64,000 bases of DNA from Komarekiella atlantica HA4396-MV6 (GTDB lineage Bacteria > Cyanobacteriota > Cyanobacteriia > Cyanobacteriales > Nostocaceae), in assembly GCA_019359395.1 (NCBI GenBank), contig JAHHHK010000011.1, positions 62,001-126,000 of the forward strand, written 5' to 3'. A model generated the notes under the pieces. It was not told where the DNA came from. It worked only from the letters and a program-made list of their open reading frames with translations, and made no database searches. Below, in pieces: positions 56,944-61,575 of the stretch (position 1 is the stretch's first letter; each line of letters begins with the position of its first letter). The translations under genes were made by a program, and so were the position numbers.

Positions 56944-59511
56944 CTATACTTCACTTTTTTCTTGGAGAAGCGATCGCCAATCGGTAATTGCTTGTTCTGT
57001 CCATAGCCAATTGCTACTCAATTTATCTATCTGAAAATTTATCGGATCATTCTTAAGCACTATTTGGCGTTGTTTTATTGCTTCCTTCATATACTGTGCT
57101 TGTTTATTAGCAGGTTGATTAGGCGCAGATTTATACAGCCCAATGGCTAAACCAGCATAAGAAGTTAAAGCATCGCGAGGTACTGCTTCTTTGAAAGATA
57201 CTGTTGCATTAAAGGCTCTATTCTGCTGTGTGAGAGCTAAATTTAAAGCCTTGAACCAAGAGTCATTAGCTCTATTCAGATTGCCTTCAGCGTAATAAGC
57301 AAATCCCAAAGCATTGTTATACAAAAGTGATTCCGGTTTGGCTTTTGCAGCATTTTCCCAATAACGGCGGGCATCATCAACACTATATTTCTTGTCTCCA
57401 GTTTGGATAAACTGCCACGCCAATCGTCCCTTGAAAAAGTTGACAGATGGATCACCGATTTGTTGATTGGGAACTAGCTTCAGGGCAGCTTCAGCCGCAG
57501 CAAGTGCACCACGATTAAGTAGTTCTTCTACAGCTAGCAGCCCAGCTTGTAAGTCACCCTGACTCAATTTTTCAGTGGCGGTAGCGGTGACAATTCCAGT
57601 TGCAGCTGTATTTAAATCGATAATCGGTTGCTTTTGGATGGGTAGAGACTGAATTGATGGTATCTCAGGTAAGGTTGCTTGAGGTCGTTGTCCCCACAAA
57701 TTTAAACCGATAACGGTGGCGATCGCACCTGCACCCATAATCCCAACAATCGGCCATAGCTTGCGGCGTTGAGTACGACGTCTCGCTGGAATTGGTTGCG
57801 ATGCCTGCGGCGGGCTACGCCTACGCAAAAGCTGAGAACTCTCCCAATCTCTTTCAAAGTGGCCAGCAGCGGGAATTTCCGTAGCAGGGTTTTCTCCCCA
57901 CAACTCTACTTCTTGCTCTTGAGAAGTCATTTCTTCTGAAACCTGCCTTTCATCAAGCATATCTTCTTGAATCTGTTGCACCAGTTCCGCATTCATTGAA
58001 GTTTTCTCAGGTGTAGCTTTTTGGTTATCTAGCTGGCGAAACAAATCCGAAACTATAGCAGAATCTTCTGCATAGCTTGAGTCATCATACTCAATTTCAT
58101 CAACGAGATCGCCCCAAGTATCTTCACCTAGCCAGTCCATCTCAGAATCGCGTGATAAACCAGAAGGGATCATCTCCTCGATTGCTAATGGCACCTCAGT
58201 ATCATCTGCCACAGCAGAATACATTGAACTGGGAGTTGCCGCCAGAGGTGAATTATTATACTGATTCAGTGACTCTGGATCAGATAAGTAAATTTCCGGG
58301 CTGAGAAAACCATCAAATTCTGGCTGGAGATACAAAATGGGTAATGCCCAGTACATCTGGTGAGAACCATAAGCCGAAATCAATCCTTGACGTACCCGAC
58401 TCACGCACAAATCCACAGGATATCCCTGACTCAAGTTACGGTAAAATAACTGTGTGAGCGTCACTGCCACTTCATCGGGAATGCGTTCTGACATCGCCAA
58501 AACACTCCGCAGCCCTCGTTTCACAAGGCTTTCGGCGAGGTTGCGTTCACCTGTATCTCCAGAGGCATTGTATGTAGCTGTATATGCCCCCAAGCAGGAG
58601 TTGAACACTGCCATTTGGATATTATTGTTAACGAGCAAGCCAGCCAGGTCATCTCCGCTCAAAGTTTCTGTTAAGCCAGTTCTCTTGCTAACAAGATAAA
58701 TTTCTCCACCATTAGAACCTAAATTACTATGACCAGAGTAGTGTAGAACGTGGAATCTTCCTTGTTCAAGCGCCTGCGTCAGTTCTTCGCGCCCTGGTTG
58801 ATCTAACACAGCAAGTTCAATTTCTGGCAAATGATTGCCACTTTCAACAGGTCGGTGTATTTGACGGTGAAGTTCAGCTTGCAGTTTGATAGCTTCTTGT
58901 TTTAGCAAGTCAAGACGGACTTGATCTGTAGGGGAAGCAATTACCATCAAGACTTTCACGCCACCTTCTTCCAGCGGTGATGGGATATTTCTTGAGCGCA
59001 AACGAGATGCACCGAGAATTCCACTTTGAAACCGCGAAAAAGCCACATAAGGCCCAGTAGCCAGAGGGCGATCGCCTGCGTGCATCACTTCCCAGGGCAG
59101 ACGAGCTAACCTAGTGTCTTTTAGCCCCAAACGCAAGCGTAATACCTGTTGATGGTTCTGGGCAATACCTTGGGCAGTAATCCAACTATCTCTGAGAGTG
59201 CCTTGAAACAGCGCGTTATAAAATTGTTGACCCAACGCCACCAAGTTTACAGAGTTTCTAGCGATCGCATCTCCCTGTAACACCAACTTCAAAGGGTCGT
59301 TCATCAAATGCCCAGCAGCAGCTAACCAATCAGCTACAGGCCAAGTCACCAACTCTTCAGCCAATGGCACCCCAGGCGCGACCTGTTCCGTCCGCACCAA
59401 GTAGTCATTTTGCCCTACTGGGGTTACGGAAATGTGAAATTCCTGGGTCACAGTTTCAGTTCGCCTCCTAAATCTGGTTTGAAACGCAAAAGTTTCAAGT
59501 CGATTTTTCAC
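56944..59511 (-). CDS. hetF: HetF-like CHAT-domain protease
   Basis: 855 aa. CHAT (caspase-like) domain about 180-400 with His261 in HYSGHSNLG and Cys306 in FNSCLGAY as the likely dyad; acidic linker 430-560; membrane helix about 585-606; C-terminal TPR-like helices (AAEAALKLVPNQQ, YNNALGFAYYAEGNLNRAND). HetF is needed for heterocyst differentiation and controls PatA/HetR levels. I assign hetF because the NsiR1 array lies directly upstream, as known from Nostoc. Start is GTG with GAGGGAG directly against it. A nine-codon upstream frame (59508-59534) ends in GTGA, overlapping the GTG. Residues 563-579 (RRRSPPQASQP) come from a repeat-like GC-rich stretch. Confidence 0.8.
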   Translation of the reverse strand: MKNRLETFAFQTRFRRRTETVTQEFHISVTPVGQNDYLVRTEQVAPGVPLAEELVTWPVADWLAAAGHLMNDPLKLVLQGDAIARNSVNLVALGQQFYNALFQGTLRDSWITAQGIAQNHQQVLRLRLGLKDTRLARLPWEVMHAGDRPLATGPYVAFSRFQSGILGASRLRSRNIPSPLEEGGVKVLMVIASPTDQVRLDLLKQEAIKLQAELHRQIHRPVESGNHLPEIELAVLDQPGREELTQALEQGRFHVLHYSGHSNLGSNGGEIYLVSKRTGLTETLSGDDLAGLLVNNNIQMAVFNSCLGAYTATYNASGDTGERNLAESLVKRGLRSVLAMSERIPDEVAVTLTQLFYRNLSQGYPVDLCVSRVRQGLISAYGSHQMYWALPILYLQPEFDGFLSPEIYLSDPESLNQYNNSPLAATPSSMYSAVADDTEVPLAIEEMIPSGLSRDSEMDWLGEDTWGDLVDEIEYDDSSYAEDSAIVSDLFRQLDNQKATPEKTSMNAELVQQIQEDMLDERQVSEEMTSQEQEVELWGENPATEIPAAGHFERDWESSQLLRRRSPPQASQPIPARRRTQRRKLWPIVGIMGAGAIATVIGLNLWGQRPQATLPEIPSIQSLPIQKQPIIDLNTAATGIVTATATEKLSQGDLQAGLLAVEELLNRGALAAAEAALKLVPNQQIGDPSVNFFKGRLAWQFIQTGDKKYSVDDARRYWENAAKAKPESLLYNNALGFAYYAEGNLNRANDSWFKALNLALTQQNRAFNATVSFKEAVPRDALTSYAGLAIGLYKSAPNQPANKQAQYMKEAIKQRQIVLKNDPINFQIDKLSSNWLWTEQAITDWRSLLQEKSEV

Positions 59512-59628
59512 TCCCTCTGATAACTTAGATGCATCCCGCCACTGAATGTTTCTGACTCCAGTCGCTTTGCTTTTTCTGCCTTTACAACTTTATCCGGATC
59601 GGATTACTTACGCCTAGAACACTCTATT

Positions 59629-59688
59629 GGTAGATGCACCTTGATCTTCAACTCCCCTAGTTGGCTGACACCCACTGGGGGTTTTTTT
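59629..59688 (+). ncRNA. nsiR1: NsiR1 copy 1 (antisense to the hetF leader)
   Basis: 60 nt from GGTAGATGCACC to the T-run; CCCCTAG and the CTGGGGG arm form the terminator. TCCGGA box at 59593-59598, start 36 nt later, with TAGAACA as -10-like element. Lies 118 bp upstream of the hetF start codon on the opposite strand, so it overlaps any hetF leader longer than that. Expected to be heterocyst-specific and HetR-dependent, by analogy with Nostoc. Confidence 0.85.
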
Positions 59689-59766
59689 AATTTTGGCAAA
59701 CAACAGCAACTTCTGACGTAATTATTCTTGAGCAGAAAATTGTGCTTAACCCTAGAATACTTGATT

Positions 59767-59825
59767 GGCAGATGCACCTTGATCTTCAACTCCCCCAGTC
59801 AGTTACTATCCATTAGGATTTTTTT
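59767..59825 (+). ncRNA. nsiR1: NsiR1 copy 2 (weak: no TCCGGA box, poor terminator)
   Basis: 59 nt, GGCAGATGCACC start. The position of the promoter box (59731) reads AGCAGA, and the terminator stem is broken (CCCCCAGT against CATTAGG), though the T-run remains. Probably silent or weak. Confidence 0.65.
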
Positions 59826-59896
59826 GACACACAACTACAATCAATCTTTTAGTAAATTTGTCCGGAGAATGGGCGTTCAACCTAGAACATTTAATT

Positions 59897-59957
59897 GGTA
59901 GATGCACCCTGATAACTAACTCCCCTGGTTGGCTAACACTTACTGGGGGTTTTTTTT
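59897..59957 (+). ncRNA. nsiR1: NsiR1 copy 3
   Basis: 61 nt with intact GGTAGATGCACCCTGATAAC start, stem CCCC/GGGGG and eight T. TCCGGA box at 59861-59866, 36 nt upstream; -10-like TAGAACA. Confidence 0.85.
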
Positions 59958-60019
59958 GTTGAGTCAGCAAAAACTCTCAACATATCCATTTTTTACTGGA
60001 GCTTACTAGTTATTTAATT

Positions 60020-60050
60020 GGTAGACACACCCTGATAATCATTGGTGTCA
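60020..60050 (+). pseudogene. NsiR1 copy 4, truncated
   Basis: Only GGTAGACACACCCTGATAA and a few following bases remain. The box is not at the right distance and the terminator is missing. Other DNA follows at about 60050-60230. Confidence 0.75.
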
Positions 60051-60230
60051 ACTTAAGCCTAACTCCTCAAAATTCTCGTTTCTAGGTTATACCTGAAAAT
60101 GCAGTCAATGCGGCTCTGCCGCAAGCCAGGAGGCGGCAACCCTCATAATAGGCATTTTCCAATTAGAGATTAAAAACAAAACAATCTTTAGAAGCAGCTT
60201 CTAGACTGGCTTAAACTTTCAGTTGATCAA

Positions 60231-60282
60231 ATTGCCTGATAACTAACTCCTCTGGTTGGCTAACAGCCATTAAGAGTTTTTT
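60231..60282 (+). pseudogene. NsiR1 copy 5, headless
   Basis: Lacks GGTAGATGCAC and the promoter box; keeps CCTGATAACTAACTCC, GGTTGGCTAACA and a T-run after a weak CTCT/AGAG stem. Confidence 0.75.
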
Positions 60283-60486
60283 CTTTGGTGAGCAGAAAGC
60301 AAGAGCTTCAATTTAACTCACATCTTGCACCTGCCATAAATTAGGTTTCTTGCAATTGGCTAAACCTGAAAACCTAAATGTTTTATCCATAAAACTGATT
60401 TCTCAGGTTTAATTGAGAGTCAATCAGTATATCATATCTAACCAAATTTATTCGGTAGATAGTGATAAACTTTAGAATATTTAATT

Positions 60487-60549
60487 TAGTAGATGTGCCC
60501 TGATAGCTCACTCCCTTGGCTGGCTAACACCGACTGGGGATTTTTTTTT
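60487..60549 (+). ncRNA. nsiR1: NsiR1 copy 6 (altered box)
   Basis: 63 nt; start changed to TAGTAGATGTGCC. Promoter box is TTCGGT at 60451-60456, still 36 nt upstream; terminator CTCCC/GGGGA with nine T. Spacing is kept but the box has drifted. Confidence 0.75.
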
Positions 60550-60621
60550 GGTTGGCATCACCATCGATTGATTGTGACACTTTTATCCGGGAGATACTGC
60601 TTGTCCCTAGAACAGATAATT

Positions 60622-60681
60622 GGTAGATGCACCCTGATAACTCACTTCCCTAGTAGGCTAACACCGACTGGGGATTTTTTT
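60622..60681 (+). ncRNA. nsiR1: NsiR1 copy 7
   Basis: 60 nt, GGTAGATGCACCCTGATAAC start. Box TCCGGG at 60586-60591, 36 nt upstream. Almost identical to copy 8 over a full 132-bp period. Confidence 0.85.
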
Positions 60682-60753
60682 GGTTGGCATCACCATCGAT
60701 TGATTGTGACACTTTTATCCGGGAGATACTGCTTGTCCCTAGAACAGATAATT

Positions 60754-60812
60754 GGTAGATGCACCCTGATAACTCACTCCCCTAGTAGGCTAACACCGAC
60801 TGGGGTTTTTTT
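60754..60812 (+). ncRNA. nsiR1: NsiR1 copy 8
   Basis: 59 nt. Box TCCGGG at 60718-60723, 36 nt upstream. Differs from copy 7 at CACTCCCC against CACTTCCC and in the first base of the T-run, so the two arose by a very recent duplication. Confidence 0.85.
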
Positions 60813-60885
60813 ATTTTAGAAACAAACAGCCCGCGTTTCTACAAATTTATCCGGAGAATGGTGTTAAGCCTGAGAACATTTAATT

Positions 60886-60945
60886 GGTAGATGCACCCTG
60901 ATAACTCACTCCCCTGGTTGGCTAACACCGACTGGGGGTTTTTTT
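60886..60945 (+). ncRNA. nsiR1: NsiR1 copy 9
   Basis: 60 nt with intact start, stem CCCC/GGGGG and seven T. Box TCCGGA at 60850-60855, 36 nt upstream; -10-like GAGAACA. Last copy before the thioredoxin-like gene. Confidence 0.85.
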
Positions 60946-61251
60946 ATACTTGTTTTCCCTGCAACAAGTTTGTTATTACCACTCTTGTCATCATTGTTAG
61001 TACATTTTGAATGTCCTGTTGTCAGACAAGAGCGAAACCTGCTCACTCATTTCCTAAATCGCTTTCCTTACATTGTCAGCCAGAGATGCCAATCAAAAAT
61101 GATTGCTGTGATATTTAATCACATTCTTAATTTTTTTTCTATATTTTGGCACTAAACTGCTTGACTCTCATTGTTTAGTCTTTCGGCAATGTACTAGTGT
61201 TCTTGGTCTATGCTAAAATATTGTGCCTAAAGCCAAGAGATTGACCAGTCC
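60946..61251. other. Intergenic region after the NsiR1 array
   Basis: About 300 bp with no further repeat unit and no gene; presumably the promoter region of the thioredoxin-like gene. Confidence 0.5.
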
Positions 61252-61575
61252 ATGAATTTAGCTGTGATTAAGTTCTCTTCAGAAGAGTGCGGCATCTGCC
61301 ACAAAATGTCCTTTTATGACAAAAAGGTGGCTGAGGAATTAGGTTTGCAGTTTATCGATGTAAAAATGCAGGATACGGCTGCTTACCGCAAGTATCGTAA
61401 GATATTACTAACTCAGTATCCTGATAAATCCGAAATGGGATGGCCTACCTACATTATCTGTGATTCTCCAGAATCAGAATTTCAGATTGTGGGTGAAGTA
61501 AAAGGAGGTCATCCCAAAGGAGAATTTAGAAGTCGTCTACAAGAGGTTCTGAATTCTACAGTTAGTCAGAACTAA
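61252..61575 (+). CDS. Thioredoxin-fold protein with CGIC motif
   Basis: 107 aa, cytoplasmic. VIKFSSEECGICHKMSFYDKKVAEELGLQFIDV carries the CxxC active site at about residues 13-16; MGWPTYIICD has the cis-proline expected opposite it. Shorter relative of thioredoxin with an inserted YRKYRKILLTQYPDKSE segment. Likely disulfide reductase or redox partner; partner unknown. Its 3' end overlaps the next, convergent gene by 14 bp. Confidence 0.85.
   Translation: MNLAVIKFSSEECGICHKMSFYDKKVAEELGLQFIDVKMQDTAAYRKYRKILLTQYPDKSEMGWPTYIICDSPESEFQIVGEVKGGHPKGEFRSRLQEVLNSTVSQN

Follow-up and report, generated by a model that had tools for sequence, protein, structure and literature searches.

Beside a putative copy of the heterocyst gene hetF, the genome of the nitrogen-fixing cyanobacterium Komarekiella atlantica HA4396-MV6 carries a direct-repeat array (59593-60946, plus strand, divergent from hetF), and the question that it raises is whether the repeats are small RNA genes that act on targets elsewhere, parts of the control region of the neighbouring gene, or relics. 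Coordinates refer to the window, by which we mean the whole stretch of 64,000 nucleotides that was analysed (Table 1); papers cited by PMC number with the mark "in part" were consulted in part. The initial annotation had proposed that the array encodes the small RNA NsiR1 and had named a covariance search as a way to check it. With the NsiR1 covariance model RF02399, six copies lie at or above the gathering score of 39, at 52.0-75.3 bits and with E-values of 4e-13 to 2e-7 for 64 kb, which is beyond chance. Copy 2 (59766-59825, 26.1 bits) and the remnant of copy 5 (60232-60284, 19.9 bits) fall below this cut-off, and copy 4 gave no RF02399 match in the model search of the window. The nine units of the initial annotation therefore stand as six full copies, one degenerate copy (2) and two remnants (4 and 5). 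The hetF gene upstream of which such arrays were said to lie is matched by an adjoining, divergent CHAT-domain gene, which is probably hetF by analogy with the published NsiR1-hetF arrangement from which we take the name (PMC9045159). The array itself is a further NsiR1 locus of an already known kind. We regard it as highly probable that each intact copy in it is a self-contained gene whose 5' module acts in trans, and that the array is an amplified branch of a dispersed family.

Table 1. Features of the NsiR1 array and its surroundings in the window.
Feature	Position	Strand	Basis or remark
hetF (probable), 855 aa, CHAT domain	56944..59511	-	ORF; Pfam CHAT 3.2e-26
Predicted seed-binding site in the hetF leader, mRNA GCGGGATGCATCTAA	59525..59539	-	-14 to -28 from the GTG start
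DIF1 box TCCGGA, copy 1	59593..59598	+	pattern
NsiR1 copy 1, hetF-proximal type, CACCTTGATCTTCAACTCC	59629..59689	+	RF02399 66.7 bits (match 59628-59689)
Copy 2, box absent, terminator stem lost	59767..59826	+	RF02399 26.1 bits; fold
DIF1 box TCCGGA, copy 3	59861..59866	+	pattern
NsiR1 copy 3	59897..59957	+	RF02399 75.3 bits (match 59896-59957)
Copy 4, 5'-end remnant only, GGTAGACACACCCTGATAA	60020..60038	+	repeat and pattern
Copy 5, remnant without 5' start motif	60232..60284	+	RF02399 19.9 bits
Box TTCGGT, copy 6	60451..60456	+	pattern; 37 nt 5' of the start motif
NsiR1 copy 6	60488..60548	+	RF02399 52.0 bits (match 60487-60548)
Box TCCGGG, copy 7	60586..60591	+	pattern
NsiR1 copy 7	60622..60682	+	RF02399 71.2 bits (match 60621-60682)
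Box TCCGGG, copy 8	60718..60723	+	pattern
NsiR1 copy 8	60754..60814	+	RF02399 67.6 bits (match 60753-60814)
DIF1 box TCCGGA, copy 9	60850..60855	+	pattern
NsiR1 copy 9	60886..60946	+	RF02399 74.9 bits (match 60885-60946)
107-aa ORF, CxxC motif, beyond the array	61252..61575	+	ORF list

The promoter boxes read as first annotated in every copy, TCCGGA in three, TCCGGG in two, TTCGGT in copy 6 and none in copy 2, and the equation of TCCGGA-type boxes with DIF promoters agrees with the published DIF1 motif, TCCGGA, 35 bp upstream of the patS start point (PMC7377430, in part). An individual box stands exactly 36 nt before the start motif GGTAGATG in copies 1, 3, 7, 8 and 9; the spacing had been called fixed at 36 nt, but for the degenerate box of copy 6 it is 37 (60451 to 60488). 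Those same five copies are predicted to form the expected hairpin and to leave most of the 5' part unpaired (-13.8 to -19.6 kcal/mol), with z-scores of -0.2 to -2.0, so that copies 3 and 8 barely improve on shuffled sequences. The proposal that every copy has its own terminator holds for these five but not for copy 2, which is stemless (-5.0 kcal/mol, z +1.1), nor for copy 6, which folds worse than most shuffles (z +1.5). An intact copy would be transcribed from GGTAGATG under a DIF1 box (TCCGGR) at -36, giving an RNA of about 60 nt that has a mostly unpaired 5' module and carries a terminator hairpin. A simple scan for promoters and terminators was uninformative in this respect (promoters 4 against 4.1 expected, terminators 2 against 1.4). 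The ORF beyond the array gave no match in a Pfam search, and a homologue of it also lies 3' of NsiR1 at hetF in one genome outside the family (f5, L251). A search for similar plasmid records found none.

This architecture is closely matched by the array of Nostoc (Anabaena) sp. PCC 7120, which has 12 copies upstream of hetF (PMC9045159, in part). The two share the RNA family, DIF1 promoters, individual terminators, divergence from hetF and a diverged hetF-proximal copy; they differ in that the array described here has six full copies, a copy 2 that has neither box nor stem, two TCCGGG boxes and two remnants. Nodularia spumigena CCY9414 carries 12 NsiR1 repeats upstream of hetF (PMC3610870, in part), alike in position and tandem arrangement and different in copy number. 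A 51-nt small RNA, 4547237r, has also been published for PCC 7120, and in the parts consulted PMC9679502 and PMC4365693 mention NsiR1 only among their references.

With copies 2, 4 and 5 degenerate and copy 6 poorly folded, the array could be seen as a decaying tandem repeat that has no present function in this strain. We give this view next to no credence, for box, spacing, module and hairpin are all kept in copies 1, 3, 7, 8 and 9, and the 132-nt units of copies 7 and 8 are 98% identical, which points to a recent duplication that is still intact. NsiR1 is moreover kept in all 217 family genomes searched with RF02399, each with between 2 and at least 23 matches, off-array matches included; the upper figure is a floor because scoring took in 23 candidates in each genome. 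Throughout the family, the number of copies differs from genome to genome. The initial annotation had taken the copy number, the mix of promoter strengths and the pattern of decay as peculiar to this strain, and here the comparison speaks otherwise: a copy 2 without a box (AGCAGA at -36) is present in five of five genus genomes examined, our own among them, the distance from copy 3 to copy 6 is shared (591 nt in G000 and G089, 590 nt in G090), and the TCCGGG pair of copies 7 and 8 is common to G000 and G089. Since congeners share the pattern of decay, it is inherited and not specific to one strain.

Nor is TCCGGG evidently a weak promoter box. It precedes 9 of the 13 copies listed in G202, seven of these nine being identical in the printed RNA. 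Across eight arrays (seven with hetF seen alongside and the first array of G161, L114, with no HetF in the stretch fetched), 57 copies have an intact start motif; this count uses the exact motif, and an earlier listing of arrays left out candidates that lacked both T-run and box. A box with at most one mismatch precedes 51 of the 57, at 36 nt in 49, at 35 in one and at 37 in one, and is spelled TCCGGA in 34, TCCGGG in 13, TCCGGT in three and TCCGGC in one; among the six copies without a box, one adjoins an assembly gap. TCCGGG is a common variant of the box. Taken together, the initial annotation recognised a known system soundly; it was wrong in one claim, that the decay is specific to the strain, and slightly off in one detail, the spacing of copy 6. 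We also note extra multi-copy NsiR1 arrays, mostly with 36-nt spacing and with no HetF in the stretch fetched, in G003 (L112) and G161 (L115 and L116).

The copies nearest to hetF differ from the rest. In all seven arrays seen beside hetF, which come from three genera, the hetF-proximal copy begins GGTAGATGCACCTTGATCTTCAACTCC while the other copies vary, and the first copy of the G161 array begins in the same way. A similar split is reported for PCC 7120, where NsiR1.1, antisense to the hetF leader, blocks translation of hetF, and alr3234 is the target of the identical copies in the centre (PMC9045159, in part). Copy 1 would sit in the hetF leader, and it keeps its own diverged sequence. In this genus the box-less copy 2 has the same 5' type as copy 1. 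The hetF transcription start of PCC 7120 lies at -256, inside nsiR1.2 (PMC8406250, in part), and by arithmetic the same distance from the hetF start falls here on 59767, the start of copy 2. By analogy, the hetF promoter has probably taken over copy 2, whose own promoter and terminator may have been lost because the stretch serves in that role.

On another reading, the whole array works in cis only, through convergent transcription or through antisense action of copy 1 on the hetF leader, the other copies being surplus. The orientation of the array fits this, as do the retained sequence of copy 1 and the position of the PCC 7120 hetF start upstream of copy 1 (PMC8406250, in part). When the -10 box of nsiR1.1 was replaced or removed, however, a hetF-promoter gfp fusion changed little (PMC8406250, in part), which argues against a strong cis effect. 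A purely cis array appears quite improbable to us, given that alr3234 is a target of NsiR1.4 in trans in PCC 7120 (PMC9045159, in part) and that NsiR1 members far from hetF are conserved.

We instead favor action in trans through the shared 5' module, GUAGAUGCACCCUGAU in most copies, which would most likely serve as a seed on translation starts. Published work on PCC 7120 has NsiR1 copies firing early in cells that become heterocysts, repressing hetF and alr3234 and favoring commitment, and the copies described here would by analogy do the same to hetF and an alr3234-type gene. Footprinting in PCC 7120 places NsiR1.4 over the alr3234 start codon, where it acts in trans (PMC9045159, in part). 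The module is predicted to be complementary to the translation starts of both hetF and the alr3234-type hetP gene. As a background for the pairings we took 617 genes of at least 100 aa, called mechanically in 0.89 Mb of this genome; all pairing energies ignore accessibility, and starts were called mechanically.

At hetF, the duplex of the 17-nt NsiR1 5' end with the leader reaches -17.6 kcal/mol in G000, G088, G089 and G090, -24.3 in G091 and -18.3 in G003, and a weaker -12.3 in G202. In the background, 3 of 617 genes reach -17.2 kcal/mol or better, with a pairing window of 64 nt as against 85 nt for hetF. Outside the family, the pairing at five hetF loci (four distinct) does not suffice for a claim of conservation, being strong only at L268, whose HetF is 42% identical (-19.2 kcal/mol at -7 from the estimated start); L251 reaches -12.1, L253 and L265 have the same sequence and reach -9.8, and at L249 the sole pairing is with the small RNA gene's own complement.

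The second predicted target, the alr3234-type HetP-family gene P0001 of this genome, was found with NF037966 and is, judging from its likeness to that group, the likely counterpart of alr3234. Its start carries AAGGGTGCATACTATG and pairs with the 17-nt NsiR1 5' end at -19.8 kcal/mol, an energy reached by none of the 617 background genes. Among the 30 best-scoring alr3234-type orthologues from 118 genomes searched, each represented by the one start per locus nearest to the aligned P0001 start, 20 pair at -14.5 kcal/mol or better, compared with 24 of 617 background genes; the orthologues are related, so these are not 20 independent events. Of the other ten, five lie at -11.3 to -12.9 kcal/mol and five at -8.1 to -8.6, which is no useful pairing. 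The sites follow two layouts, with GGAGTGCATACT before the ATG, or with ATGCATC over the ATG and GAGGG before it. No comparable site was found in six examples of HetP proper (MNQN type). As a separate observation, a second HetP paralogue (MNYQ type; L212 at G000:C19, L207, L213 and L215) has AGGGTTA or something similar ahead of its ATG; for its predicted duplex with the 5' 34 nt of copy 9, the raw pairing energy is -16.1 to -21.9 kcal/mol (L212 being the -21.9).

The module is also found well away from hetF. NsiR1-like RNAs lie at three further loci of the same genome, on contigs C78, C56 and C48. The first (C78:175253-175303, minus strand; L079/L011) is a single copy that scores 51.5 bits with RF02399, over the cut-off. 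The second (C56:192875-193240, minus strand; L089, type III) has three copies at 32.6-35.8 bits, under the cut-off, with TCCTGA/CCCGGA-type boxes; this triplet is NsiR1-like only, and the same type, again with three copies, occurs in four of four congeners looked at. The third (C48:51561-51580, minus strand; L218, type IV) was found by pattern and is absent from the RF02399 matches of this genome at both E <= 0.001 and E <= 0.01, so that it may be called NsiR1-like by its 5' module only. Its module is spelled TTAGATGCACCCTGAT and that of array copy 6 AGTAGATGTGCCCTGAT, and the module therefore differs in detail between members. In the whole genome there are 13 occurrences of the exact 11-mer GTAGATGCACC, five in the array, three at C56, one at C78 and four at other sites with no box or terminator in view; its reversed control occurs once. 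From their translations we take the neighbours to be lgt and cobM at C78, where the RNA lies between them and is divergent from cobM, an exoD-like and a rluA-like gene at C56, and a gatB-like and an argJ-like gene at C48. Because close forms of the module recur at three further loci, the array would be the amplified branch of a dispersed family that extends beyond it. Type IV RNAs (L218; also L098 and L103-L107) have the same or nearly the same 5' module and no TCCGGA box; upstream of them stand a GGGTGACAACCCTCA-like inverted repeat, reminiscent of a HetR site, and a TATACT element.

Conservation runs deep for the copy between lgt and cobM, which keeps a fixed location in related cyanobacteria. 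A CobM protein scan of genome contigs gave 220 loci, and in the best 80 of these, with the upstream part limited to 900 nt, the small RNA lies directly upstream of cobM on the opposite strand in all 80; without exception, TCCGGA precedes GGTAGATG by exactly 35 nt and the first 23 nt of the RNA are the same. In the congeners G088 and G090 the box of this copy reads TCCTGA. Its hosts include Nostoc, Tolypothrix, Scytonema, Brasilonema, Chlorogloeopsis, Cylindrospermum and Dolichospermum. Among 22 chosen sequences, 3 of 12 predicted base pairs change on both sides and stay paired. When 388 genomes of the order were searched with the lgt-cobM pattern (at most one mismatch), each of the 71 family genomes had a single match and 56 of the 317 others had one or more, and a control pattern had no match in any row listed. 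The flanks of 29 of 30 loci outside the family (f3, f15, f18, f33) hold cobM and/or lgt, the exception being on a short contig, and one locus in f29 also has cobM, which would place an orthologous copy in five or more other families of the order (f3, f15, f18, f29 and f33). Separately, the lgt-cobM-type copy has four or five matches each, on one or two contigs, at L343 and L344 (f15; G401 and G432) and in G347 (f29). No title or abstract beginning found with NsiR1 and related terms names this copy, and it may have been listed earlier.

How far does the family reach? RF02399 matches 280 of the 388 order genomes at E <= 0.001, 256 of them over the cut-off, and 209 of the 317 genomes outside the family (71 of the 388 being family). 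Escherichia coli, used as a control, gives matches below the cut-off, so weak matches alone prove little. We read 30 of 93 matches in 12 genomes, one from each of 12 families, chosen among the matching ones. A box with at most one mismatch stands 33-38 nt before the start motif in 29 of the 30, compared with 3.5% when positions in these loci are taken at random. HetF homologues adjoin the RNA in f15, f5 and f21, with a weak one (42% identity) in f9. In the GTDB, heterocyst formers are placed in Nostocaceae. As a marker of heterocyst formers PatD (NF037954) proved useless, since it matched 16 of 16 genomes and the Synechococcus elongatus control. NsiR1 resemblance outside heterocyst formers has a precedent in RNA162 of Limnospira indica PCC 8005, a 57-nt NsiR1-like RNA of a strain without heterocysts (PMC8400943, in part). 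The matches outside the family may be a case of the same kind; we liken the two by description.

One may ask whether the module is shared for a simpler reason, namely that it is kept for transcription initiation or RNA stability at DIF1-type promoters, in which case the dispersed copies would share a start site and not a regulon. Such a constraint would explain why the module sets in where transcription is inferred to start and why it accompanies the box in 29 of the 30 loci read outside the family, and yet we hold this explanation to be rather unlikely. Type IV copies (L098, L103-L107, L218, and L260 of f8) keep all or most of the module without a TCCGGA box and under another promoter, many orthologues have an alr3234-type start region complementary to the module, and the NsiR1.4 footprint covers the alr3234 start codon (PMC9045159, in part).

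We lean towards a targeting module shared across the order, with the NsiR1 of heterocyst formers being the amplified, hetF-linked branch of a seed-sharing small RNA family and the lgt-cobM copy possibly its oldest stable home. Members of this family would share a DIF1-like box, a spacing of 33-38 nt, GGTAGATGCACCCTGRT and a variable terminator. As the lgt-cobM copy extends across further families and may be the oldest home, the DIF1-sRNA module would predate heterocysts and would have been recruited into heterocyst commitment.

If RNAs from several loci do share one targeting module, deletion or depletion of the hetF array in a model strain may leave some NsiR1 activity behind, and the phenotypes published so far could be incomplete. 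As a candidate regulator, the lgt-cobM copy lends itself to easy testing; the parts of the literature consulted do not mention it. And if the genomes outside the family are indeed without heterocysts, DIF1-type promoters would be older than heterocysts.
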